From Dermatophagoides farinae (taxonomy: Eukaryota; Arthropoda; Arachnida; Sarcoptiformes; Pyroglyphidae), in contig NC_134685.1 of the NCBI RefSeq assembly GCF_024713945.1, forward strand, positions 1,736,001 through 1,800,000: a stretch of DNA of 64,000 bases, written 5' to 3'. Below the pieces are notes generated by a model that made no database searches, was not told the DNA's origin, and saw only the letters and a program-made list of their open reading frames with translations. Made by a program: the position numbers and the translations under genes. Of this stretch, positions 21,033-64,000 are shown piece after piece. The first letter of the stretch is position 1, and each line of letters opens with the position of its first letter.

Positions 21033-22226
21033 TCAATTTGTCTGTATTATCAATACGAAATAACTGAATGCAAACAATATGATTGTAAAGAAAAATTTAC
21101 CATCATATATAACCAGATCGTAGATATTTAGTAGAAAATATTCATGATAAATTTCAATCATTTCAAAATAACGAATTTTTGGATTGATTTTCGCTTTTTG
21201 CCATCGATTGAAAATCTGATCCATTATGGTGATCATTGCTGTTTCATTGTTGATGGTCATCTCGGTGCCGGATTGATATTGATATAATTTGTTCAATAAT
21301 TTTTTCATCATTTTCGATTTTAATGTTTTTATCATAATGATTTTTGATGATTGTCGTCCATTACGTTGATGATGATGAAAAACATTGACAATTTCATTTA
21401 ATTCTGTTTGAATATTCATATCCAAATAAATACAGTAAATAGCACCGATAAAATGTATACTAGATACAATGGATTGCATCAAAGCTGTTTGACCAATATA
21501 ATAACTTAATGGTGTCATTATCATATAGAATGTTTCACCAATTACATAGGTAATCATTGCATAGCCCCAAATTTGATGAAATTCTTCACTGGTTGTAGCC
21601 ATCAATCGAATCCGCATCATACATTCTTGTTCATTGATTGTGTTTGATCGAATATCGTTTAACATTTGATGAATTGTTTGTTGGATGCCAAATTTGAAAT
21701 AAATAATAACAAAATATGTTAATGATTCATTCATAAAAATCATGGATAATACGTAGATTTTCAAACATTTTGATATGGTTGGTGGAAATTGTATTGATTC
21801 TACATTGGATAAACCAACTGCATAATAAATGAATAGACCATTTAAATTACAAGCAATTAAAAGTATAATCGTTATGATTCGATGACGTTGATTATTTGGT
21901 AGATAAACGGCTTCAAATATAGATGAATTGAACAATGTAATTAATCGTTGTCCATTTAATGTATAGTAGATATAGAATGATATAAATAACACAAAATACA
22001 ATGCATCATTGACCAATTCAATCATTTTGCCAAATAAATTCGGACTAACTTGCGATATTCGTTTTGTGTAACGATAATATTCATTTTGATAAAAATCATA
22101 TATGATAAAAACATATGAATAGATGAACAATGTGATTAGAATAATACTTTTAATCAATGATCGACGATGATGATGATGATGCCAATCAAATTGGCTAAAT
22201 GTGAATCCAATTGATCTAAAATTCAA
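21033..22226 (-). CDS. gustatory-receptor-like 7TM protein (5' end not found)
   Basis: Open frame of about 397 residues rich in Ile, Phe, Tyr and Leu, with seven hydrophobic segments. In order they start near SLIKSIILITLFIYS, ALYFVLFISFYIYY, IITIILLIACNLNG, IYVLSMIFMNESLT, ITYVIGETFYMIMT, SIHFIGAIYCIYLD and FFFTIILFAFSYFV. The layout, with intracellular loops between TM4-5 and TM6-7 and a very short tail ending FSYFVLIIQTN, fits the arthropod gustatory receptor (GR) superfamily, whose last helix ends near a TYxxxxxQ-like motif. GRs are ligand-gated cation channels for tastants and other cues. The frame opens with TTG and has no ATG until about residue 64, inside the membrane domain. A TTTTAG acceptor lies at the open end, so a 5' exon is needed. 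I could not identify it. Divergent family; identification moderate. Confidence 0.6.
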   Translation of the reverse strand: MNFRSIGFTFSQFDWHHHHHRRSLIKSIILITLFIYSYVFIIYDFYQNEYYRYTKRISQVSPNLFGKMIELVNDALYFVLFISFYIYYTLNGQRLITLFNSSIFEAVYLPNNQRHRIITIILLIACNLNGLFIYYAVGLSNVESIQFPPTISKCLKIYVLSMIFMNESLTYFVIIYFKFGIQQTIHQMLNDIRSNTINEQECMMRIRLMATTSEEFHQIWGYAMITYVIGETFYMIMTPLSYYIGQTALMQSIVSSIHFIGAIYCIYLDMNIQTELNEIVNVFHHHQRNGRQSSKIIMIKTLKSKMMKKLLNKLYQYQSGTEMTINNETAMITIMDQIFNRWQKAKINPKIRYFEMIEIYHEYFLLNIYDLVIYDGKFFFTIILFAFSYFVLIIQTN

Positions 22227-22874
22227 TGTGAAAAAAAAAAATTAAAAATGAAATTACAAAGTAAAAAAATCATTTTTATACGTATAATAGTTGACAAAAA
22301 TCCGAAGTGGAAATATTCGAATATTCATCATTTTTTTTTTCGAATCGAATTTGCCCAATTCAAATGATGAATGACATTTTGGACACACACACACAACTCA
22401 ATTCGATGATGATGATGATGATAATGTATGCACCACATTGTTTATCGATCCAATTTCAATATAACAGATCAATTAATCAATCAATTGATTAATTAGTGAA
22501 GACAAAAAATATAATCAAAATGTTTCGAAACGAAAAAAAAGCAAAAAAAATTCCGACTAGTGCTGCCATCGTGAGGACATTGAGCTAAAAATTAAAACAT
22601 GCACACACACACACACAAACAACCGGATGTATATTTTCTACAACAGAAATGAATGGTTTTTTTTAAAAAAAAGAAGAAATTTTTAATTTATTTTCATATA
22701 TGATTGATTGACAAAAAAAAGATGGATAATTTCCATGGGAAAATACAAAAAGATTATAAAAATACAATTCGAAGTGTAGTCAGTTAGTGAATATTTGAAA
22801 AGAGAGAAAAAAGATTTAGTTGAATTTGATGAATACAAATATACCATGATTATTGATTTTAATTATTATTATTA
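22227..22874. other. spacer between GR-like gene and TPX2-like 3' end
   Basis: About 650 bases, A/T-rich, with a CA run near 22599-22618 and a GAT run near 22405-22421. It probably holds the missing 5' exon and promoter of the GR-like gene. I see no clear exon. Confidence 0.4.
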
Positions 22875-24842
22875 TTACACTTTGTTGTTTTTATTGTTGT
22901 TGTTGTTGTTCTTGATTCTGTTCATCTGATTGGCAGCAGCAACACGAGCTTGAATTTTTTTAAAATCCGGCATTGGACGTGCACGAAATACGACCGGCGG
23001 CGGCGGTTGATTTGTTGATGATGATGTTTTGCCATTTCCATTATCATTACGATGTTTTAGTTGATAAATTTTGGAACGATATTCAGTACAAAAATTTGGT
23101 GTTCGAGCTTTAGTCAATGGACGTTTGGATTTAATTTTCATTGATTTAATTAATGGAATTTCAGCAATTGGTTTGGCCGGTGGCTGTTGTTGTGCTACAT
23201 CATTAGTTTCTAATGATGATGATGACGATGTTGTTGTTGACTGAACACGATTGGATTCAGTTTCAATTCGGCGACGAGATCTCGATCGAATTTCAGTCAA
23301 TAAAAGTGGTGGCCGTGGTTTGGTCAATTTATGTCGTTGCCATAAAGTTTTTGGCTGATATTGCCGTGCTGAATTCAAAAAACGTTGTGTTTGTTCGGCC
23401 ATCGATACGTATTTTTGTGATGGTCGTTCAGTTTGAATTCTTTTTGGCAAAGCAGTTAATCGATTAATAGTATCGATAGACATTGTTTTTTTAGTTACTT
23501 TTTTCGATTTTGGTGTTACTGGTTCACGATTTTCTTTATCAACGATGACAAGATTTACATTCTTTGTCGATTGTTTATCATCATGATGATCCAATTCTTT
23601 TTTATCATTATTAGCATCATCTTGTTTATCATCATCTTGATTCAATGTACGTGAAAATCGTTTCCAATATTTTTTCGATCGATCTTTGCTAATATTCATC
23701 ACCATTGGTTTTGATTTTGTCACTGTTTCATCATTTTTATTCTTGTTATTAATAATACCATGTTTTTTAAATATGAACATTGGTGTTGCTTTACGATTTT
23801 TAATTTTCAATTTTTTTTCTTCATCAACATTCAATGTCGATGGTGTTTTAATCATTCCATCGACATCAAAAGATACGGCCAGAACATTGGTCGAAGATTC
23901 TTTTTCATCATCATTAAAACGTACAATAGGACTTTTTACCAAATATGAATGACGTTTACATGATTGATCAACATTGGATTGTGCCGGTTCTTTCAATTCA
24001 TCCGAGGATATTTCATGAAAGTTATCCATTGTTTCTTCTTGTTCGGTTTCGGACAATAAATCTTCAACAACAACAACATCATTAGTTATGTTTGATACGC
24101 CATCCATTGATTCATCATTAATTTCATTCGAATTTTTTTGGATACTATTCTCATCATCCTCATTGTTATTTGATGGTTCTGGTGGAATCATTTCTTCTTG
24201 TTGTGATTGTACCTGCTGGTCACCGGTCAATTGTACTTGATCCAATACTTGAACCATTTTTGTCATATTGAATGAAACATTGTTGATTTCATCATCATCA
24301 TTATCATCAATTTTTTTTGAGCTTTGAACAGATTTTCGGGATTTTCGATATGAAAGGCTTTTTCGTTTACCGAATTCAGCAATGGTTGAACGTTTTTGCC
24401 GCAATGGTGTATGACCATTCTGATATAAACATCGTAATGGTGTTTCACGCAATTCATATTTGGATGAAAAATTTGGTAATGATGTTTTATCCAATTTAGA
24501 TTCCGGTGTTTGATATAAAGATTTTGAAGATTCATCAGAAAAATTTTCTTTGATTGATTCATCATCAATAGCATCATCATTATATTCATGATTTTTCACT
24601 GTTTTATGAATGTAAATTTTTATATTAAATTATTAGACAAAAGAAATTATTATTTTTTTTTTGTTTTACTTACAAAAATAATTATCATCACCATCATGAT
24701 TAGATTGGTCATCCATTTGGTTGAAATCAAAAAAATGTGGTGCTTCATATTCCCAAACTTCGTTTGTATTTTTAGACGATTTATTATGATCGGCGACAAT
24801 TGTCGAATCCAATTCATCACCAACATTAAGATTATCAGCCAT
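22875..24842 (-). CDS. TPX2: TPX2-like spindle assembly factor
   Basis: Two exons: 24842-24674 and 24598-22875. The intron is 75 bases, with donor GTAAGT and acceptor ACAG. The product is about 630 residues, very Lys/Ser/Asp-rich and mostly disordered. The first exon carries WEYEAPHFFDFNQMDD (30-45), which parallels the Tyr-x-Asp-Ala-Pro...Phe-x-Asn-Phe segment with which TPX2 binds and activates Aurora A. Later blocks resemble TPX2 repeats: YVSMAEQTQRFLNS, LTKPRPPLLLTEIRSRSR, RPLTKARTPNFCTEYRS and VFRARPMPDFKK. Two KEN boxes (24543-24551 and 23529-23537) would mark it for APC/C-Cdh1. TPX2 promotes microtubule nucleation at spindles and is a known Cdh1 target. It is divergently paired with the RhoGAP gene. 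The C-terminus ends in an Asn/Lys run. Vertebrate TPX2 is longer (about 750 residues). Confidence 0.7.
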
Positions 24843-32621: not shown

Positions 32622-33662
32622 CTATCCAAATGCTGAACAATGAATATAAGTCGGTTTTATCTGATCTTTTGATTTGGTCAAATCACCATAATCAAACATT
32701 GAAAGTTCATAATTAAATTGAAAAAAATTCTTTATACGACCAGCAGAATGTAAACGTATGACAGCATGACGACAACGTATATTGTATGTTATATTTGTTG
32801 GTTTTTTTTCTTCTGAACAAATATCTTTCACCGATTCAGGTGTTCCATCAATTTCCATTGTTGTTGATGTGCCACCAATTTCAACATAATCATTCACAAA
32901 TTGACTACATGGTCTACGAATATATGGAGTCTTTAAAACTTTAAAACCAAGCTGATAATTAACAATATGAACATTTATAGTTGGAAATAATTCAATACGG
33001 CCACCAAATTGTAATAGATAAACAGTACAAATTGGATAATATGAATCTATTGTATGTGTACCATTCCAATCTGGCTGTCTATATGGTATGATGAGTACAT
33101 TACATGGTTTTGGATTCATAATGAACATTACTTGTATATCAAATCTAGAATGTTGATATGGTAAATAAAATTCAATTTGCATAAAATTCTGTGATGATTT
33201 ATAGCTAATATTTGGTTTACAAAATTCATGTAATCTTTTTCTAGATTTTCCTTCATTCACTAATTTATGTTCACCATCAGTTGGTATTGTCCAACCAGAA
33301 TAAACATTCCAACCATCAAATAGATCAATATATGACATTTGATATGAATTACTATCATTACATTGGAAATTAATGGCAATCAATCGTACACGAATCAATG
33401 TATCCACTGGTGATATTATACGTGTTAAACAATGTTTTTCTTCACGTATACTTTGTTCATTTGGATCAGGCCAATCAACTTGAAAACGAAAATAACCAGG
33501 TGAATGTGTTAATGTACGACAATTAAAACGTTGTATTGGAAATTTTTTTTGATATTGATATTGTTGATGTATTGAAAATATATCATTATGGTCATCTGTT
33601 GTCAAATATATTGCCAATATGAATGGATAGATATGAAACATTAAAATGATTTTTGCGAACAT
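32622..33662 (-). CDS. secreted two-CUB-domain protein
   Basis: Single-exon 346-residue protein starting with a hydrophobic signal peptide (about 1-21). Two CUB-like domains follow. The first has Cys48 with SPGYF, Cys78, Cys101 with YIDLFDG, and Cys148. The second has Cys187, Cys212, Cys252 with YVEIGG, Cys282 and Cys297. The spacing of about 30, 23 and 47 residues between cysteines and the alternating beta pattern fit CUB modules. CUB domains are extracellular binding modules in developmental and matrix proteins. There is no transmembrane segment or protease domain, so it is probably secreted, perhaps anchored to a partner. I do not recognise a specific orthologue. It is divergently arranged with the IAPEDY-repeat gene. 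Confidence 0.65.
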   Translation of the reverse strand: MFAKIILMFHIYPFILAIYLTTDDHNDIFSIHQQYQYQKKFPIQRFNCRTLTHSPGYFRFQVDWPDPNEQSIREEKHCLTRIISPVDTLIRVRLIAINFQCNDSNSYQMSYIDLFDGWNVYSGWTIPTDGEHKLVNEGKSRKRLHEFCKPNISYKSSQNFMQIEFYLPYQHSRFDIQVMFIMNPKPCNVLIIPYRQPDWNGTHTIDSYYPICTVYLLQFGGRIELFPTINVHIVNYQLGFKVLKTPYIRRPCSQFVNDYVEIGGTSTTMEIDGTPESVKDICSEEKKPTNITYNIRCRHAVIRLHSAGRIKNFFQFNYELSMFDYGDLTKSKDQIKPTYIHCSAFG

Positions 33663-33956: not shown

Positions 33957-34886
33957 ATGCCAACAGGTGGTAATCATCATCAACAACAACATCATCACCA
34001 TCATCATCATCGTCATCATCATCATAGCCATCAACAAAAGTCTGCAAAATCAATGCCTAGACATCAAAAACCACATTCAAAACAAACATCAAAACAACGT
34101 CAACATCATCAACAAAGACGTACAAGTACAACATTGATTCGTAGACCAAATTCGGATACTAACAAACAACAACAACAACAACAACGTTATTCACCACCGG
34201 TAATTAAACCAACACAAGGACAAGAAATAACATCGGAAACACCAACAGTTATGATTGCACCAGAAGATTATATGCACATCTATCATAAACGTTTACCACC
34301 ATTACAACAATCACAACAACCACAATTAAGCGATGTGAATAGTCCAAATAATCAAAATAATAATGATCAATTGGATAATCTACCTACAGTTATGATTGCA
34401 CCAGAAGATTATAATCATATTTATCATAAACAACAACAACAACAACAACAACAATCGCCCGAAGACGAAACCATTAAACCACCAATGGATGATACAAATA
34501 TTGATTGTTGTCAAACAGCATTGATTGCACCAGAAGATTATATTCATATCTATAAACGTCAACAAAGATCATCGATGATAAAATTAACGAATCGTTCATC
34601 ATCACAACAACGGATAATTAAATTTTTTTCGATTATTGATAATGATCTTTTAGATAATAATAATAATGATAGTGGTGAACAATTAAAACAACAAGAAACG
34701 GAACAATTATTTAAATGTTATCCACGTTGTCCATCATTATGCAATAGTAGCATTACACGGATAGGTTTACGACGAGAACAACAACAACAACAACAACAAC
34801 AAACGGCCAGTTTGACTGCTTCACAACAATTGATACCAACAAGATTAATGGATGCCATAAGAAAGTTTATTACATCACAAAAATAA
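33957..34886 (+). CDS. Gln/His-rich protein with three IAPEDYxHIY repeats, unrecognised
   Basis: 309-residue open frame. The N-terminus is His/Gln-rich (7-30), followed by a basic Arg/Lys/Ser/Gln stretch. Three near-identical motifs stand in otherwise low-complexity sequence: PTVMIAPEDYMHIYHK (96-111), PTVMIAPEDYNHIYHK (143-158) and TALIAPEDYIHIYKR (187-201), 47 and 44 residues apart. The tail contains IIKFFSIIDNDLLD, a Cys pair region YPRCPSLCNSS and an Ile/Leu-rich end LMDAIRKFI. It has no signal peptide or membrane helix. The repeats keep their protein sequence while flanks are degenerate, so the motif is probably functional, perhaps a tyrosine-containing docking peptide. I do not recognise a family. 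An upstream exon is possible because CCAACAG just after the start resembles an acceptor. Confidence 0.6.
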   Translation: MPTGGNHHQQQHHHHHHHRHHHHSHQQKSAKSMPRHQKPHSKQTSKQRQHHQQRRTSTTLIRRPNSDTNKQQQQQQRYSPPVIKPTQGQEITSETPTVMIAPEDYMHIYHKRLPPLQQSQQPQLSDVNSPNNQNNNDQLDNLPTVMIAPEDYNHIYHKQQQQQQQQSPEDETIKPPMDDTNIDCCQTALIAPEDYIHIYKRQQRSSMIKLTNRSSSQQRIIKFFSIIDNDLLDNNNNDSGEQLKQQETEQLFKCYPRCPSLCNSSITRIGLRREQQQQQQQQTASLTASQQLIPTRLMDAIRKFITSQK

Positions 34887-36307
34887 TAAAATTTGTTTGT
34901 TTTTTTTTGAAAAAAAATAAATTCTTAACAGCAGCAGTCTGTGTTAATTATAATTCGTTTGTTTTTGTTATAAATCACTTGAATTAACACATCATAAGAA
35001 AAATCATCTTTCAATCAATCCATTTGATCATTGAATGGATTTTTTTTTGTTGTTGTTTGTTGATGGCTGGGCCCTATTTTTTACCTGTTGATTGATTCGA
35101 AAATAAAATATGATGATGTCATACGACTTGGTTGATTCAAAATACAACCAGTTTGTTTTTCATTGAAATTGCATAACTATATGTGGATGATTTATATAGA
35201 TGACCACCAATATTGAATATATATGGTCAAGGTGTGAATTCCAAAAAAATATGAAAGTGAAAAAATTTGCTGTAATCAACAGGTTTTTTTTGTTGTTGTT
35301 GCGCCACTGGTACTATAATAGTTGCAATATTTTTATTTGAATTTCTCATGAAACATGAAACATTTCAAATTCATAAATTTTTCCATCGATGATAACTGAT
35401 GTACGAACTATTTGAGCAGAAAAAAAGAGAGAAAAAAAAGAATTAGTTTTTTTTTTGTTACTTTGCAAATACCGAATGGTTACCAAAGAATTTCACAATT
35501 TATCCCTTATTTTTTTTGATTTTCTTCTTCGATGGTTTAAAATCATAAAATTATCGATTATCGATCAGTTTTTTTCCCATATTAATCATTCAATGATAAT
35601 TGGAAATCATTATCATTTTAATGATCAAAATTAACCACTCAAAAAAAAATCAAGGATGATAGCCTGAAGAAAGTGTAACTTGGAAAATTCAAAGAAAAAA
35701 AAAATTATCAAATTTCATATTTAATTAGTATGATGTGAAGTGATGTGTGTGTGTGTCACAATATTATTATAATTAATATCAACACCATCATGATTATTTT
35801 TATGATTTAATAAATTCAAACAAGATGATAATGTGTGTGATTTAAAAATCAACAAAGATAACAACAGAATCAAACAGTGGTTTTTTCTATTCATTCATCA
35901 AAACCAATAATATTGCAATATATTAATGGTCAATAAATCGATGACGATGATGATGATGATGTTGGTTGTTATCGTTGTCGTTGCCGCTGTTGCTGTTGCT
36001 GTTGACAGGTTTTAGCCGTTATAAGCCGTTGCAGCAAACAAAATTGAATGATAAATATTTCAAAAAGTACAAATTCGAAAAAATTCGAAAAAAAAGACTA
36101 TATTGGCGGCCATATTCGAAATGATTAACCTTTACAAAAAAAAATTGGAAAAAAAGAGAAGAAAAAAAATCTAGATAAGATAAGCAAACTTAGATGGATC
36201 GAAAAAGAGTATGGAGAAAATTCAATTTTTCATTTTTTTTCAAAGATGGACAAAGTCGGCCATCGATTAATTAATGATCTTCATCAAGGACTTTGGAAGA
36301 AATGATT

Positions 36308-36339
<32 letters not shown>

Positions 36340-36623
36340 CAAAAATGAAATGAAATGTCCATCATCATGATCAAATATCGGAACATGATGACGAAAGAAA
36401 TTCATTCATTCAGTCATCATCTGAACTTCGAATGAAATTTCATCCAATAAAAACTTGTTGTTGTTGTTGATTCTTGTTTGATTTTTTTTTCATTCGGCTT
36501 TTCACTAAACTCGTTTATCATTTTTTGATCTTATTCAATTTTCATTCATTTGATTCAATTTTCATAAGTGCGATAATCGAAAAATTCTTGTGGCATTATC
36601 ATCATTGTTGTCACATCCTGAAA
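34887..36623. other. intergenic region upstream of NRF-6-like gene
   Basis: 1.7 kb of A/T tracts and GAT/GTT arrays (for example 36310-36340), plus a GT run near 35745-35755. No gene is seen. The open frame upstream of 36624 continues without a Met and is probably 5' untranslated. Confidence 0.5.
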
Positions 36624-39215
36624 ATGAATTTTTCGACCACAATGATAAAAATTAAAAGTCCATGTCCATTATGGTTAACCATAATGGTCATTACAGTGTC
36701 GATTGTTTATGTTAGTACAGAAATTTCAATCAAACAAAATTCTATTGATCATCATCAACATGATAATCATCGATCGAATGTGATTATGAATAAAAATTCA
36801 ATTGTTGATCATGAAGAACATGGTGAAGAGGATGATGATGACGATCATGATGATGATGATGAAGATGAATCCATTTCTGGTCGTATAATTTCAATATTTT
36901 ATGAATTGGAATTATTGCGTTCGAAAATATTTCGGGAAATTTCCACCATTAATAATAATCGAAATAAACAACATGATGATGATAAATATGATGATTATAG
37001 TGAAATTTTCAAACAAATCAGTAAACCATTACATGGTTTAGCATCAATTTTTATTAAACTTCAATATGAATTATCACAACCATGTAATGATGCATTGATT
37101 CATTGGCTCAATTCATTACGTGATCAACATTTATGGGCATTTCGAATGCTTGATTCCAATGGTCTTATACCACATTTAGGCATTCTTTCTGGTCCAATAT
37201 CAAATTTTGGTGCATATGATCAATGTTTAGCTATTAAATCTGGTGAAATTCGTGGCCAATATTGTATGATTGAAACAAGATTATCATCATCATCATCATC
37301 ATCATCAGTATTGAAACAACGGCAATCCGAATCATTAGATGAAAAGGATCATTTATTTATGAAACATTCATCATCGAATGATACAATTTGGATGGAAATC
37401 CAAAGAAATCGTCGATTATTACCGGCAGCACGTTGGTATTTAAGCGTTTGTCTACCATCACAATGTACACGTAAAGATGTTCAATATCTGATTGATGATC
37501 AAAAATTATTAGCAGAAGTGAAAAATTGTCATCATTTAGATGATGGTAACTTACCGAAAAACAATGTAATATTTCTCACTATTTTCATCATCATTTTAAT
37601 CATCATTTTGTTCACCATCATTGATCGACGATATGTGAATCGATCGAATAATGTCGGAGAAAACAAATCTATTAACCAGATTAATCAACCACCATCAAAA
37701 GATAGAATCGAATCCATTATTGATTCTGTTCGTCTGGTAAACATTATTCTTATTATATATTGGCATACCTATATGTTTACATGGAAATCATCGATTCGTT
37801 TATCAATGGAACTTTTTCAAACATTTCTTCAATTATCACCCATACAATTGATGATAATTGGTTGGCCATTAATGGAATCAATGTTATTTTTGGAAGCATT
37901 ACGTTTATCATATCAAATGTTTCGTTCATCAAAACAATCCGATGAAAAAAATTTTCAAAACATTTTTCAACATTTCTTTTATCATTTCATACAACGATGG
38001 TTCAATATTGTCATTTTATTATTCTGGATGTTTACATTCATTCCAATCCTATCGAATGGACCACAATCATTTCGATCCGTCGAAGCATTAAATGAATGCC
38101 GTAATGAATGGTGGAAAATATTATTGTTTGCATCGAATTTCAGTGATCATCAAAATAGTTGTCTATCACATATATGGATCATTGCGGTTGAATTTCAGCT
38201 TTTCATAATTATTCTACCATTCATTTATATAATAAAACGTATGAAAATGTCTCGTAAAACGGTAATTAGTTTCGTTTTGATTACAATAATCATTGCTTGC
38301 ATTGTAACCACATCTTATTATCATCAATATGATCGTAATATTAAACAACTTGTTCATGGTACAATGATATCGGAAACAGATTTTATGGAAGATCTTTTTG
38401 CAATGAATATATCACCATTATTTCATCTATGTTCATATATTTTGGGATTATTATTCGGTTATTGGATATCGATAAAATCTAATCAGAACAATAATAATAA
38501 ATGGCCAAATCTTACGCGACGATCCAAAGCTATGATGGTGGCAATCATATTGGCCATAAGTATTGTGATTGGTTGGTTTTTACTATTTCATCAATCATCA
38601 CATTGGTCACCAATGATATCAAGCATTATACTTGGATCATATCGTTTCATTTGGTCAATGTGGTTGATCATATTATTCATTTTTATTTGTGATTTTAATG
38701 CAATACTGGAATATTGTTCTGAAAAATCCAATTTGATTCATATGATTAGCCCATTAGCATTTCAATCATATCTAATACATTATTTGGTCATTATTGTTCG
38801 TGATTCACAACGTCGTCAACCGATTGTATTTGGCCATATGAAAATGTTTGAAGAATTTCTACTCAATCTTTTCATTAGTTTATTATTAGCATGTTCAATA
38901 CGATATTTTGTTAGTGAGCCATCGTGTCGAATCATTCGATATTGTTGGAAAACAATGGCCAGAGTGAATTCGGAAAAAAAATCCAAATGGCCATCAAAAT
39001 TATCAATAAAATCTTCTTCACGATCATCATCTTATCAAGAGATGGCAAATATTGTCGACAACAATACAAATGACAATCATCATCATACTGCAAATAATTC
39101 AAATGAAACAATCATTGATCCAGCAAGTATATCGACATCAGTTGAATTAACAGCATTATTATCATCATCATCATCATCATCGAATTCTAATGGAAAAAAT
39201 ATGTCACAAAATTAG
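36624..39215 (+). CDS. NRF-6-type membrane acyltransferase (acyltransferase 3 family)
   Basis: Single-exon protein of about 863 residues from the Met at 36624. A hydrophobic N-terminus (WLTIMVITVSIVYVS) acts as signal or anchor. An acidic Asp/His run follows, then the extracellular NRF domain (about 150-300: PCNDALIHWLNSLRDQHLWA, GPISNFGAYDQCL, GQYCMIE, RWYLSVCLPSQCT). Then comes a polytopic acyltransferase-3 domain (about 360-780), starting RIESIIDSVRLVNIILIIYW with the conserved His in WHTY and ending PLAFQSYLIHYLVI. Founding members are C. elegans NRF-6/NDG-4 (fluoxetine resistance, lipid and yolk transport) and the family is expanded in arthropods. The substrate is unknown. A Ser/Asn-rich cytosolic tail closes it. 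Confidence 0.9.
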   Translation: MNFSTTMIKIKSPCPLWLTIMVITVSIVYVSTEISIKQNSIDHHQHDNHRSNVIMNKNSIVDHEEHGEEDDDDDHDDDDEDESISGRIISIFYELELLRSKIFREISTINNNRNKQHDDDKYDDYSEIFKQISKPLHGLASIFIKLQYELSQPCNDALIHWLNSLRDQHLWAFRMLDSNGLIPHLGILSGPISNFGAYDQCLAIKSGEIRGQYCMIETRLSSSSSSSSVLKQRQSESLDEKDHLFMKHSSSNDTIWMEIQRNRRLLPAARWYLSVCLPSQCTRKDVQYLIDDQKLLAEVKNCHHLDDGNLPKNNVIFLTIFIIILIIILFTIIDRRYVNRSNNVGENKSINQINQPPSKDRIESIIDSVRLVNIILIIYWHTYMFTWKSSIRLSMELFQTFLQLSPIQLMIIGWPLMESMLFLEALRLSYQMFRSSKQSDEKNFQNIFQHFFYHFIQRWFNIVILLFWMFTFIPILSNGPQSFRSVEALNECRNEWWKILLFASNFSDHQNSCLSHIWIIAVEFQLFIIILPFIYIIKRMKMSRKTVISFVLITIIIACIVTTSYYHQYDRNIKQLVHGTMISETDFMEDLFAMNISPLFHLCSYILGLLFGYWISIKSNQNNNNKWPNLTRRSKAMMVAIILAISIVIGWFLLFHQSSHWSPMISSIILGSYRFIWSMWLIILFIFICDFNAILEYCSEKSNLIHMISPLAFQSYLIHYLVIIVRDSQRRQPIVFGHMKMFEEFLLNLFISLLLACSIRYFVSEPSCRIIRYCWKTMARVNSEKKSKWPSKLSIKSSSRSSSYQEMANIVDNNTNDNHHHTANNSNETIIDPASISTSVELTALLSSSSSSSNSNGKNMSQN

Positions 39216-39611
39216 TCATCATAGTTGATAATGAATTGTACAAACCATAAATGCCAGTGTTCCATATATTATTTGCCAAAAAAATTTCACAAAAAAAACA
39301 TACACACTATTTGTATGAATCATTAAACAGATTATGTTGAATTTCATTTTTTTTTTTTTTGGGTTATTTCTCATTTTCACTAAAAATAACATCTATGAGT
39401 GCTTCCCAATACACAAACAAACTAGCTAGAATATATAAAGAATTAAAATGAAAAGAGAATCAAAACATGATAAAAATAGAATCTCACCACATTCATAGAG
39501 GTTTCGTCGAGGTTATACAAAGTTTTTCTTTAGCCATTGTTGTTGTTGTTGTTGTTGTTATGTTGATTCTTTCCATTCAGCACAAAACATGATCATGTTG
39601 ATTTTGAATTG
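39216..39611. other. spacer between NRF-6-like and glutamate receptor genes
   Basis: 396 bases, A/T-rich, with a GTT run (39538-39559) 53 bases before the receptor start. It holds the 3' end of one gene and the promoter of the next. Confidence 0.4.
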
Positions 39612-42600
39612 ATGAACAGAAAAAAAATGGATTCACGATTAATTTTGATATTAATATCATCATTGATCATCAATATATTAATTATTGATCAAAATCAAAT
39701 TGAAGCTACCACTGCATTACCATCAGAGATTAATATTGGTGCTATATTCAAAAAAGATGATCAACATCTATTGAAAGCATTACATGATATTGTTGATCGT
39801 ATTAATAATGATAAAAAAATTTTACCACGTACAAATCTGACTATAAAATCACAATATATACTATCAAGAGATAGTTTACGTGCAGCAAAAATAACATGTC
39901 AAATGTTAAAGGAAAAAGTATGGCTTATACTTACATCACGTTCTGATTCAGCAAATCGTTTTGCAAGATCAACAGCCGATATGTTACATATACCACATCT
40001 ATCCATTCAATGGGATTATCGTTCTGCTTATATTGATAATGTAAATTTTCCTAAACATATGAAAGATTCATCATCATCATCAATTTATGATGATGATCCA
40101 GCATCAATGTTGATACGTGGTCCAAACGGTGGTTTCTATATGATGGATCCATCCATTTCAGGTAATGCTGAAACTGGTTTTCGTTTTTCTTCAACATCTG
40201 GTTCATCAACATTTCGATCAAGAAAACCATCATCATCATTATTACCACCACGTAATTATCAACATCAAGAAACAATAACAAATATTCAACATTTAACATT
40301 GAATATATATCCTGATGCAACAGAATTATCGGAAGCATTAAAAGATTTTGTCGATACACGATCATGGAAATCATTTACATTAATATATGATAGTGATGAT
40401 GCATTAATACGTTGTAAAGATCTACTTACATTGGCAAATCTATCGAAACCAGGAAAACCAAAAATCAAAGTTTCTGTATTAAATTTTGTTGAATTTGATG
40501 CAATGGCAAGATTACAATCAAAAATGTTGCAAAAAGTTCGTCGTCGTAGTAGTATTCAAGATCGTTTTAATATGTCAATAAAAGATCATCGTGGTGCATC
40601 ATATTATCACCGTAATCGTTATCGTCCATATAATCCAATGCAAGATCAATTACATCATTATCATCATCATCATCATCATCAGCAGCAGCAACAACAACAA
40701 CAACAACATCAACATCAATGGTCATCAAATCTGGAAGATCTTGAACATCAAATGCAACAATATGTCTATATGAAATTATGGAAAGAGATTAAATCATCGG
40801 AACATAATTTTATATTAAGCTTACGTTTTGATCGTGTTCTGGATATTCTACGTGAAGCAAAAAAAACAAAACGAATGAGTGAATATGATAATTATTTTAT
40901 CATAACAATGGACCTACATATGTATGATCTGATGGAATTTCAAAATATTGAACCATTACCAAATATAACGGCATTATCAGTGGTTAGTGCACATGGTCAA
41001 GAAATCAATCTCGGTACTGAAGATGAATTATTTGCGCGTGGTGGTGGTTTTTATTCATCACCATTTCTAGTCACAGGAAACGGTATACGGTCGACAAAAA
41101 AATTAAGCACAGATGAAGCATTAATATATGATGCAATGACATTGTTTGCACGTGCATTAGATGATTTAGATCGTTCACGGCCAGAATTGATTGTTGAACC
41201 ATTTGTTGAATGTGATATTATGTCTAATCCAAGTGATAATAATAATAATAATAACGATAATCAAGATCAATATCAATATCATCAACGGCCATGGCCATTA
41301 GGCATTCATATTATTGATTATATGAAAAATTTACATAGTCGTGGCGTAACCGGATTGCTAATGTTTAATGATCAAGGCCTAAGGGTTAATTTTACATTGG
41401 ATGTTTTACAATTGAAACCAAATGGTTTGAAAACAGTAGCCAAATGGACACGTTCAGGTGGAATAATTTCACTTTCAAATTATACATTTTATGATTCATA
41501 TCGTGAAATATTGGAAGCAATGAAATTTAAAGAATTATTGATTACGGTACCACCATCATCAATACCATATGTATCGTTACGTGAAGATCATGAAAATCAT
41601 ATTGGCAATGATAAATTCTATGGTTATTGTGTGGATTTATTACAAGAAATTGCCAATGTTTTTCGTCAAGATTTTCAAAGTGATTTTAAATATAGTATAC
41701 AAATATCACAGGATGGTCAATACGGAAGACCAGATAAAGAGACTGGTGAATGGAATGGAATGTTCGGCGAACTAATACGTCATCAGGCTGATTTAGCTAT
41801 TGCCGATTTGACTGCCACCTATCTTCGAGAAACAGCAGTAGATTTTACAATGCCATTCATGAATTTAGGAATAGCGATTTTATTCAAAAAACCAAGCGTT
41901 CCAGAACCGGAAATGTTTTCATTTCTTAAACCATTTTCCGTTGAAGTATGGTTATATTTGGCAAGTGCATTTTTGGGCATATCATTAATGTTATGGATAA
42001 TGTCAAGAATATCACCATATGAATGGGAAGCACCACATGGTTGTGATCCAGAACCAATGGAATTATGTAATCAATTTTCTATTGGCAATAGTCTTTGGTT
42101 TACAATTGTAAGTAGATGATATTGAATAGTTGAATGAATTATTCTTTTGTGTATCTTTCAATCAAAGGGTTCTCTTATGCAACAAGGTTCCGATCTGGGA
42201 CCACGTGCATTATCAACACGTTGTTTGGCAACGATTTGGTGGTTTTTTACATTGATCATTATTTCATCTTATACGGCTAATCTTGCTGCATCGTTAACAT
42301 TATCCAGAATGGCACCAGCAATTTCATCGGTTGAAGATCTTGCAAAACAAACACTGATACTTTATGGTTGCCGCAAAGGTGGATCAACATGGGAATTTTT
42401 TGCTCAATCAAACAATACAATCTATCAACGAATGTTCAATACAATGGAATCAAATCCTGAAGTTTATATCAATAAAGTTACCGATGCTATTGAACGTGTT
42501 CGTAAAGGTGGCTATGCATATCTTGCTGAATCATCAACAATTGAATATCTTATTCAACGACGTTGTGATTTAATTCAGGTGGGCAATTGGTTAGACAATA

Positions 42601-43487
42601 AAGGTTATGGAATAGCTACGCCACCGGAATCACCTTATCGTACACCGATATCGAATGCAATCACCGTATTACAGGATCGTGGAACACTTTATCAGCTAAA
42701 AAAACGTTGGTGGGTTGAAAAAGGTGGTGGTCTTTGTACTGACGATACGGTATTTACATCGGCTGCTGAATTAAAAATTGAAAATCTTGGTGGTGTTTTT
42801 CTCGTACTAACCGTTGGTGTTGCTATTGGTCTACTGTGTGGTTTCATTGAATTTGTATGGAAATCATTGAAAATTGCCCGTGATGAACGTGAATCGATCG
42901 GTAAATTGATTTGGTTAGAAATGTTTCGTATCTGTACTGGTGGTGGATCATCACGTCCAGTATTTCAACCATCATCATCAACAATCAATATGACAGCATT
43001 AGATCAATCAATTATACAGAATCCAAATCAAAATGATAATGATAATGATTCACCACGATCATCTACTTATCGTCGTACAAGACCATTTTCAAAAATATCA
43101 TCATTTACATCGAATTCAATGGCACAATTTGATAATAATAATTATTATCCATCATCACCAACAGCTATTACTGGAAGTATCAATGGTGGTGGTGGTGATC
43201 AAACAACAAGTGGTGGTGGTGGTGGTATTGGTTCAAATTCTGATTATGGATCACCATTACGAATGCGTCCAACATCATCATCGAATCGTGGTAATAAAAT
43301 AATGGATAATAAGAATAATCAAGATAATAATAACAATGCATCATCATCATCGGCAATAATGTCACCATTAATATCGATGAATTCAACAAAATCATTGAAC
43401 AAATTGAATAATATTAATTATAATGGTCAAATGGCATTTGGATCACCAACAAGTTTTAAATCACAACAGCCATATAATATGTATTGA
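39612..43487 (+). CDS. kainate-type ionotropic glutamate receptor subunit
   Basis: Two exons: 39612-42107 and 42168-43487 (60-base intron, donor GTAAGT), about 1271 residues. Parts in order are a signal peptide ([14 protein letters not shown]), an amino-terminal domain, ligand-binding S1 ([51 protein letters not shown] with the binding Arg), TM1, the pore loop GSLMQQGSD, and TM3 [19 protein letters not shown]2 follows ([29 protein letters not shown]), then TM4 and a long Gly/Ser/Asn tail. The Thr of GGST and Glu of AESSTIEY fit a glutamate site; the overall match is closest to GRIK subunits. Oddities are low-complexity insertions in the amino-terminal domain (about residues 146-220 and a His/Gln run near 350-373) and SLTLSRM where FLTVERM is usual after TM3. 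A start at 39627 is also possible. Confidence 0.93.
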
Positions 43488-60119: not shown

Positions 60120-62044
60120 TTAATCGGATGTATTGACTAAAGATGTAGTAGCTACATTAGCAGTAGCAGTAGCAGTTGTAGATATTACTGCCGCTGCTGC
60201 TGCTGTTGTTGCTGTTGATGATGATGAAACATTATTCGTATGATGATTTGAATTTGCCGTTGATGTTCTTCGAAATGCTGATGGTGTACGACTTCTATTA
60301 ATCAATGATAATGGTTCTGGTGAATGTTGTTGTTCTTGATGTTGATTTGACGACGATGATGATGTTGTGGATGATGATGATGATGATGATGATGGTGATG
60401 ATGATGGTGATGGTAATGGTGATGGTGTACTATTTCCACCATTATTATTATTATCAGATGTTTGTTGCTGTTGTGATTGACTATTTTCATCATTAATATC
60501 GGTAATAACATCAACCGATGGTGATTCTCGACTATCCGGTCTTGATATTGGCAATGGCAATGGCAATGGTGATTGCAATGGTGATGATGATGATGATGAT
60601 GATAATTGTCCTTCACGATTACCATTATCATTCATCGTTGTCATTGTTTTTGTAGTTGTATTTATCATCGTTGTTGATGTAGTTGTCGATGATGGTGTTG
60701 ATCGATTATTTGTTGCTGATGTTGTTTGAATATTTGATCCATGATGATTTGTCTGTTGTTGTTGTTGTTGTTGTTGAGATTGATTCAATGGATGATTCGA
60801 AATAATTGATGCTAAATGTGATGTTAAATGAGCAGTCCATGCTGATTCAGCCAATGTTTGTGGATGATTTAAATTTGAATTTATAGTCATATTGGATGAA
60901 CCGGATCCAATCATACCATGATGATGATTATGATTAAAATGACCAACATGATTCATTGATGATGATGGATGATGATGTGCAGTACCAGTTGGACTGGGTG
61001 ATAAATTTCGATTTCTTTGACCATTAATTGTTGATGATTGATGAGAATTAATGTTTCCATTATTCGATGAATTTATTGTTGTTGTTGTTGTTGGTAAATT
61101 TGTTGTTGATGATGATGATGATCCAGGAAATAATCCAGCAAAATATGATCGTGGATGTGGAAATGCTGGACCACCACCAATATTTCCATGATGTTGTTGA
61201 TGATGATGATGATGATGATGTGGGAATGTTCCATTTCCACCACCACCACCACCAACACCTGATGATGAACGATTACTGCCGCCGCCACCACCACCACTGG
61301 CAGCAGCAGCAGCAAATTGAGACCAAGTAGCTGCATTCTGTAAATCAGCAAAATGACTAAAAGCAAGTAATGGATTTAATAATGTATGTGATGGAGGCGG
61401 TGGTGGTGGTATTGTTACCACCGGTGGTGGTGGTAATCCACCGGATATTTGTTGTTGTTGTTGTTGTCCACCAAATGGCGATGAAGATGATGTGGATGAT
61501 GATGATGATGAAAGATTACGATTCAGACCAATTAATGCCGTTGGTAATAAACCATTGGTCATCATCGGTGTTGTTGAATGCTGTTGATTATGATGATGAT
61601 GATGAAGATGAACATTTGTTAAATGTGATGAATGATGATTCGATATTGATTTTGCTGTCATTAAATTAGCAATCGATGATGATGATGATGATGATGGATT
61701 TGAATTTGTTCGATTATTAGCATTGTTCGATATTGTTCTTAAATCACGATCATCATTATCTTTACCAGTAATTGTAGCAGTTGTTATAACCGATGTTGTA
61801 TTGTTATTGTTATTATTTTTACCTAAAGAATTTAAATCCAAATTAAAACCAGATTTCGATGTTCTTGTTGGTGATAATGATGATGATGATGATAATTTAC
61901 CATTTCTTTGACCATTCATCAATAATGTTGTTGATGATGATGATTTAGATGATTTAGATGATGTTGATGATGATGCCGATAATGGTGGTGGTGGCGGTGT
62001 GGTTGGTGACAGGTTTCCATTTATAATTAATTGATTATTTGATA
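60120..62044 (-). CDS. 3' exon of a large low-complexity, probably regulatory protein
   Basis: About 640 residues open from a CAATAG acceptor at 62045-62046 (phase 1 join) to the stop. A single-exon start at the Met at 61919 is the alternative. Composition is Ser, Asn, His, Gln, Gly, Pro and Ala runs, typical of the tails of developmental transcription factors. Less repetitive islands are SGFNLDLNSLGK, SIANLMTAKSISNHH, TNGLLPTALIGLNRNL, HTLLNPLLAFSHFADLQNAA with TWSQFAAAAA, SYFAGLFPG, LAESAWTAHLTSHLASII, SRPDSRESPSVDVITDIND and SPEPLSLINRSRTPSAFRR. SIANLMTAKS and PLSLI look like short corepressor- or cofactor-type motifs, which is inference. No DNA-binding domain is in this exon; it would be in upstream exons at higher coordinates. 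I cannot name the gene. Confidence 0.6.
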
Positions 62045-64000
62045 CTATTGATTTGTTGTGGACGAAAGAAATGATTGAAAAAAGAATATTTTAAAATGAT
62101 CAGGTTAATAGGTATAAAATTCATAAGAAAAAAAAAAGAAATTCTGGTTTATTTTCGGGGGGAGAGGACAAGAATCCTATCAAATTTTCCATTAATCCAT
62201 CCATCCATTCATCATGGAATATTCTTGTGTTTTGTTTTTGTTTTTGTTTTTTTGTTTTGCCTGATAAAATTCTTTAATAATTTTTTTTCTCCCTAAATTC
62301 AAATTTATTTTTTCCAGAATTTTATATTCATTTATTTTTTTTGTTTGTTTTATTTGTTTGTTGCTACATCGTTCCGTACATGCTCCTTTTGTTGTCGTAT
62401 CCTGCCTGTAGACCTTCACAGAATCATCCGAACGGACAGACAGACAGACGGACATTTTGAAAGAATTTTTATTTGGCTACAAAAACAAAAAAATTTTTTT
62501 TTGCGCATGAATTTTCATCAAAAATTACAAAAATGTGTGTGTGTGTACGAAAAAATGAATGAATGAATGAATGAACCAAGGATGAACCTTTAGTTTTCAC
62601 ATTTTTTCCTCTATTGTAACAAAACAATTTTCAAAGAATGGCCAAATAGAAAATGAACAAACCAACCAACCAAACAACCAATCGACCAACGAAAAAATGC
62701 GAAAGAACCGCCTACATTTCTTATATGTGCAATAATGTAGCTACTTTGTTGGCTACATAATCATCATCAATACATACATACAGAATTTTTATATATATGT
62801 AATACACACACACACACATGCGTAGTGAGAAAAAAATTCTTGATTTTTTTTTAAATGGCTACAAAACAAAATTTCATTTTTTTTTAAATGATTTAACGAG
62901 AAATAATGCAAAAAAAACAACAAAAAAAGAACGAAGAAGAAGAATTGGCATTGGACATGACAATAGCAAAAAAAAAACCTGAAAAGAATACGAGACTATA
63001 AAAAAAACAGTGATAAAGAAACAAAATGTATGTTTCAACAAGAAATAAAAAAAAAACAAACGTCCAAATCGAGATGTATGTCTGTGTGTGTGTGTGGGAT
63101 ATAAATCAATTGGTGGCCAAAAGAAAATATGGAAATGTGGAGACAGAATGAGAGAATAAAATTCAAATTATTTGAAACTATGAAAATTTTCTTATTTGCA
63201 TTTTGATTTATATGTGTATAATGAAAATGACAAGATAATGATAATCATAAATAAAAATAGTGGTAATATACATTAACCGTAGTGCAATTCCAACAACAAC
63301 AACAACAACAACGAATTCAAATAAATAACTAGAATCACGCAATTCTCATATATATCCAATCAAACAATCAACAAACCCCGAAGGAATTACAGATAAAAAA
63401 ATCCACCAATTGTGAATGTGGCCATCGCCCATACATAACCAACCAATCAAGGGAAAAAAACCTAACCAAACAAATGTACGAAAACATTTACACAACGACA
63501 ACGAAAAAAAAACTTGAAAATATATGGATAATACAACAAGTACGAAAATTGGCCATTTACACATTTATCGACGCCCAAAAAATTTTCAGTGTTTTTTTTT
63601 TTTTTTTTTTTTTGAAAGTAGAAAAAAAACATTCTTGAAAATGTAGCTTTGACAAGCTTTTTTTCATTGGCCTATCCGCACATGATGATGATGATAATAA
63701 ACTAACCAACTGATGACAACGAAATGATGCGTGCGCATCAATTTGATCATGCAGTCGCAAGAATTGGATACATTTTATACAATTGCAGTTGAGCACCAAG
63801 AAAGCTTTGGTATCATTGCACCAATATGAGAAAATATTGAATACAATGAATGGCTTCTTAAAAACGGTAATGTTGTTGTTCCAAAGTGTATCATTGCATA
63901 ACAACATATTGGACACATTCCAAAAAAATGGCCAAAAACACACACAACACACCATTGAACTTTTGGATAAAACCACTACTACAAAATTGAAAATCCATAT
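62045..64000. other. probable intron or upstream region of the 60 kb gene
   Basis: About 2 kb on the 5' side of the minus-strand exon. Mostly A/T tracts and short CA/GT runs; no exon was recognised. The last 350 bases (63650-63990) are less repetitive than the rest and hold the dyad GATGCGTGCGCATC (63726-63739) and a 139-residue minus-strand open frame without recognisable domains. Confidence 0.4.

Follow-up and report, generated by a model that had tools for sequence, protein, structure and literature searches.

The question raised by this locus is what a protein of largely low-complexity sequence does with several copies of one short peptide. The stretch of mite DNA analysed here, 64,000 nucleotides long and referred to as the window, contains an open reading frame on the + strand (33957..34886) that runs from ATG to stop and encodes a Gln/Asn/His-rich protein of 309 aa with three motif copies. 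The initial annotation described these copies as near-identical and about 45 residues apart. This description is confirmed, with start-to-start spacings of 47 and 43 residues, except that copy 3 diverges more than was claimed, having QTAL in place of PTVM and KR in place of HK. The finding holds and goes further than first described: the window frame belongs to a gene family dispersed over the genome, and the peptide is the element under selection.

The frame itself is longer than those of simulated sequence. From stop to stop it spans 321 codons, and the longest open frame among 40 simulated 64-kb windows (first-order Markov) reached 205. Its GC content by codon position is 0.51/0.34/0.13, a profile for which CAA repeats account in part. 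We took the first in-frame ATG as the start; a further 5′ exon may exist. This ATG lies in a weak context and is followed directly on its 3′ side by an acceptor-like CAACAG. The frame sits between a divergent minus-strand gene and a nose-resistant-to-fluoxetine gene (Table 1). Elsewhere in the window, Pfam identifies two long frames as an ionotropic glutamate receptor gene (39567-43487, +), and three long open frames on the minus strand have no Pfam match at E<=0.01: 22878-24629 (584 aa), 60123-62090 (656 aa) and 21036-22241 (402 aa).

Table 1. Coordinates of the features discussed, in the window and at the other loci of the family
Feature	Position	Strand	Remarks
Motif copy 1, PTVMIAPEDYMHIY	34242..34283	+	
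Motif copy 2, PTVMIAPEDYNHIY	34383..34424	+	
Motif copy 3, QTALIAPEDYIHIY	34512..34553	+	
C-terminal stretch with predicted helix, IPTRLMDAIRKFITSQK	34815..34883	+	resembles the C-terminal part of C1b, ILPQSIIQIIDKFISKQK
AATAAA, putative polyadenylation signal	34916..34921	+	begins 30 bases past the ORF stop; judged from sequence alone
Divergent single-frame gene	32622-33662	-	weak CRF-binding-protein similarity, both domains sub-threshold at 24.2 and 20.6 bits (cut-offs 25; Pfam)
Nose-resistant-to-fluoxetine gene	36474-39215		NRF domain, 78.3 bits (Pfam)
C1a	contig C1, ~2.4437 Mb		8 copies; 436 aa from ATG
C1b	contig C1, ~3.5457 Mb		3 copies
C2			2 copies
C3			1 copy
C6			1 copy
C8			3 copies

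Pattern and protein searches of the 62.4 Mb, 22-contig mite genome recovered 21 motif copies at seven loci on six contigs. These numbers are a lower bound, as the genome searches score best candidates only. A group-2 allergen homologue of this genome, the best of seven matches and the one that was read, clearly resembles Der p 2/Der f 2 yet is far from identical to them, in keeping with an astigmatid mite. Copy number differs between the paralogues from 1 to 8 (8, 3, 3, 3, 2, 1 and 1 per locus). The genome-wide DNA pattern for APEDY gave 11 matches against none for the reversed control, and 10 of the 11 fall inside family frames; the match on contig C7 reads PAPEDYFESL and is a chance match. 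The looser DYxHIY pattern gave 42 matches against 16 for its reverse, with 12 inside the family, while 16 of the 42 were reported without a locus and the sequence there was not read. Beyond the family, no motif copy is present at the loci reported among the first 20 of these matches. Several other candidates were rejected: C6:1969070 and C2:3561371 have no open frame of at least 60 codons carrying the motif, the 81-codon frame at C4:2085937 lacks the IAP half, and the match at C1:2604377 is low complexity. The family count leaves aside weak unread matches at C6:4661279, C2:7461132, C4:299688 and C2:7769021, unread matches to query parts outside the motif at C4:6299059, C4:986050, C8:813374, C3:1016361 and C1:7534202, and the weak matches of one further genome search that fall outside the family loci. 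At two members the reading frame shifts at a CAA tract, in C6 (L052:3800-3870) and in C8 (L017:2400-2440), in both cases forward by one base. This may stem from an error in assembly, from splicing or from decay; the pieces of both frames were kept separate, and the upstream frame of C6 was assumed to be part of the same gene.

Aligned, the 21 copies define a 14-residue consensus, P-T-[AVI]-[LMIK]-I-A-P-x-D-[YF]-x-H-I-[YF]. Within it, T, I, A, P, D, H and the second I are invariant, partly by construction, given the strict pattern used to collect the copies. The first P is present in 20 copies (Gln in window copy 3) and the central Tyr likewise in 20 (Phe in C1b copy 3). At the final aromatic position, 13 copies have Tyr and 8 have Phe. 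When the sequences were rescanned with relaxed scoring and without the collecting pattern, every one of the 21 copies matched at 11-12 of 12 informative positions. No other stretch in the family frames scored above 5/12, and the best non-copy stretch in 87 sequences read in six frames scored 7/12. Copies are therefore all-or-none, and half-decayed copies are absent from the sequence read. In C3, a fragment IPSDTPSLLV resembles the left half of the motif. Relative entropy is 3.1-5.0 bits over the 12 positions under constraint, compared with 1.9 and 2.2 bits at the two that vary. Shoulders of 1-2.5 bits flank the motif, corresponding to [IV]xSD to the left and K/S and R/K to the right; farther out, values are mostly 0.4-1.0 bit. 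The Asp-Tyr-x-x-Ile-Tyr core singled out in the initial annotation does not stand as a unit of its own, since the conserved unit is the whole of PTxLIAPxDYxHI[YF]; the suggestion of docking attached to that core survives as the best reading.

Divergence between copies reveals constraint on the peptide. Synonymous and replacement divergence, pS and pN, are 0.593 and 0.086 between copies within genes, 0.597 and 0.163 between copies of different genes, and 0.60 and 0.15 over all copy pairs. With synonymous sites near saturation and replacements rare, selection acts on the peptide, and the high synonymous divergence within genes means that copies within a gene are not recent duplicates. The motif copies are thus old and constrained. 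Protein-level selection had been proposed earlier from codon differences among the three window copies. The direction of that argument is upheld by the seven-locus comparison, but the window pairs alone differ only modestly, with 2 to 3 synonymous differences over ~8 sites and 2 to 4.5 replacement differences over ~34 sites per pair, so that the signal from the window copies taken by themselves is weak.

Outside the motif, members are Q/N- and K/R-rich and in places H- or D/E-rich, and the linkers between copies, which are Q/N- and K/R-rich, give start-to-start distances of 30-65 residues. AlphaFold2 models the window protein with a mean pLDDT of 40.8 and a pTM of 0.16; the input was a single sequence, so this low confidence is no strong proof of disorder. 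The model contains weak helices at residues 184-187, 240-257, 269-277 and 295-307, the last with pLDDT block means of 59 and 68. This last predicted helix lies in the C-terminal stretch that resembles C1b. Tails were compared, with Q/N runs masked, in 15 pairs from six of the seven loci, leaving out C2, which has almost no tail. The window-C1b pair, one of these 15, scored 45, a value equalled by 1/500 shuffles. For window-C3, 1/500 shuffles likewise scored as high, over a separate stretch for which no helix is predicted, and for each of the remaining 13 pairs at least 23/500 did. The evidence for a C-terminal helix as a second common element of the window protein and C1b is no more than suggestive. 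A likeness of the window tail to those of C1a and C6, seen by eye, failed the shuffle test.

The ends of other members add separate observations. C3 (L053:1434-2750) terminates in CCSCQII, which resembles a lipidated (prenylated or palmitoylated) CaaX end. C1a (L014:4093-5400, -) and C8 (L017:2023-2427, +) have similar starts by eye, Arg-rich at first, followed by a Gly run and after it a Lys/Arg-rich KRKP. No hydrophobic signal stretch is seen by eye after the first ATG in C1a (MAHSERRR), C1b (MMPVKVV) or C8 (MSDRRNHRR). The C1b frame directly upstream of its first ATG is hydrophobic and without Met, and the family genes may have further 5′ exons.

The initial annotation assigned the protein to no known family, and this is borne out in the families searched. 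The motif frames of all seven loci gave nothing above the curated cut-offs of Pfam or NCBIfam, nor did 16 of the 21 single copies in Pfam, and the window ORF has no Pfam match at E<=1. The best sub-threshold matches are C1a to PBECR3 (28.0 bits against a cut-off of 30) and C8b to BUD22 (19.4 against 37). In the PDB, a profile of 16 of the 21 motif copies found no confirmed relative, and the window ORF gave 29 weak matches (E>=0.036), all within its His/Gln-rich residues 9-93. Among viral contigs, 10 stretches fit the peptide pattern in a search with a profile of 16 of the 21 copies, and none was confirmed. A profile from five of the seven loci found no confirmed relative in prokaryote genome contigs, nor did C1a in phages; in PHROGs, queried with C1a and the window ORF, a match to phrog_27846 (E 8e-4 over 12 residues of C1a) was judged to be chance. 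These viral, phage, bacterial and archaeal collections are not informative about other mites. Of the motif strings looked for in the literature, those of 6-8 letters occur in none of the papers searched; the five-letter strings 'hiyhk' and 'apedy' do occur.

What, then, is the peptide for? The combination of an ungapped constraint over 14 positions, a variable copy number and otherwise dissimilar low-complexity proteins argues for a linear docking motif. With slightly better than even confidence, we favor the reading that the window gene is one of a scattered family whose products are mostly disordered intracellular scaffolds, presumably cytosolic or nuclear, carrying tandem docking motifs for one conserved partner. 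Each copy of PT[AVI]LIAPxD[YF]xHI[YF] would bind the same groove of one folded partner, and having several copies per chain, separated by low-complexity linkers that differ in length, would increase avidity or bring several partner molecules together. The run T-x-L-I-A before a proline, followed by helix-like spacing, suggests a strand-turn-helix shape on the partner: the run would form a short strand and the proline a turn, after which a helix begins that offers Tyr/Phe, Ile and Tyr/Phe. Successive spacings of 3 and 4 separate the two free positions (one between P and D, the other between Y and H) and the residue that follows the last aromatic, which, few as these positions are, would place them on one exposed helix face. 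Phosphorylation may tune the binding and is probably not required, as the Phe at the centre of one copy speaks against a strict need for it.

That same Phe bears on the first of the alternatives, a repeated phosphotyrosine site, in which an acidic-directed tyrosine kinase would act on the motif and pYxHI would recruit an SH2 protein, or the motif would serve as a YxxPhi sorting signal, in the manner of other multi-tyrosine scaffolds. In its favor, Y-x-x-I and the familiar YxxPhi pattern each occur in 20 of the 21 copies and Y-[ED]-x-I in 13, and an Asp precedes the aromatic in every one. An obligatory phosphotyrosine, as suggested in the initial annotation, is nevertheless opposed by Phe at the centre of C1b copy 3 and at the last position of eight copies, and recognition by SH2 domains or as YxxPhi, as generally understood, leaves the conserved upstream T, I, A, P and the His unaccounted for; we regard this reading as unlikely. 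An extended Atg8-interacting (LIR) motif, as in selective-autophagy adaptors with several LIRs, would permit the Tyr/Phe exchange, and the genome contains Atg8 genes, as expected of any animal. By the definitions in PMC5119064, xLIR fits 15 of the 21 copies and canonical LIR nine, while the core [WFY]xx[LIV] fits all 21 but is loose enough for chance matches to be expected often. Only one of the three window copies fits xLIR and the other two fail, and PTxxIAP and the fixed His lie outside the pattern, which makes this explanation quite unlikely.

The repeated units and variable spacers could also be those of a secreted precursor from which peptides ending in HIY or HIF are freed at basic flanks as bioactive peptides. 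KR directly follows the motif in three copies, and the hydrophobic frame ahead of the first ATG of C1b would fit such a protein, but 18 of the 21 copies have no KR there, two loci are single-copy and no signal stretch is visible at the first-ATG starts of C1a, C1b and C8; we hold this to be very unlikely. Least probable, to the point of being highly implausible, is a non-functional remnant or a chance open frame in CAA-repeat DNA. The low complexity, the CAA-tract frame shifts of two paralogues and the weak context of the window ATG are what such a remnant would present, yet the motif is kept at the protein level across seven loci despite high synonymous divergence, with no half-decayed copies, and the frame in the window is unbroken and exceeds every simulated one in length.

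Returning to the multivalent docking scaffold as the preferred reading, we also propose, with somewhat less than even confidence, that PT[AVI]LIAPxD[YF]xHI[YF] is an undescribed interaction motif and that the seven genes are mite-lineage multivalent hubs whose evolution has been coupled to that of a single dedicated partner domain. Docking motifs tend to be short and loosely defined, and they are difficult to recognise in sequence alone. Here 14 residues persist through 21 copies amid surroundings that have mostly drifted, which would mark a strong interaction whose partner might be captured in a pull-down with a single synthetic peptide, for example PTALIAPEDYEHIYKR. If confined to mites, the family would represent an interaction system specific to a lineage with allergy-causing as well as parasitic species.

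Set against known systems, the upstream half of the mite motif is explained by none of the patterns compared. Multi-tyrosine docking scaffolds such as the p130Cas substrate domain, ITAM proteins and bacterial EPIYA effectors likewise carry several copies of one short Tyr motif in disordered sequence, whereas the mite unit is 14 residues long, has Phe for Tyr once and occurs in members without a Pfam domain at the cut-off. The calcineurin PxIxIT pattern, as commonly given, shares the P-T-[VI]-x-I start found in 11 of the 21 mite copies; the mite motif, in contrast, has Ala at the sixth position in all 21 and at the third in 10, and the pattern fits none. A SUMO-interaction-like pattern of the usual form fits 10 of the 21. 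As for PBECR3 (Pfam PF18812), whose sub-threshold match is to the eight-copy C1a, neither the 16 single copies scanned nor the other members match it, and the C1a score probably represents summed weak similarity. With the LIR/AIM proteins that bind Atg8, as described in PMC5119064, the mite motif has in common an acidic residue followed by an aromatic, two residues and Ile, and differs by its added PTxxIAP half and His. The Aurora A docking peptide of TPX2 (7-YSYDAPSDFINFSS-21; PMC8786283) has upstream aromatics that are missing from the mite motif, and the TPX2-derived pattern Y-x-[YF]-D-A-P fits 0 of 21 copies, but the peptide shares with the mite motif the order AP-x-D-[FY]-x-x-hydrophobic, which in C1b copy 3 reads APSDFQHI.
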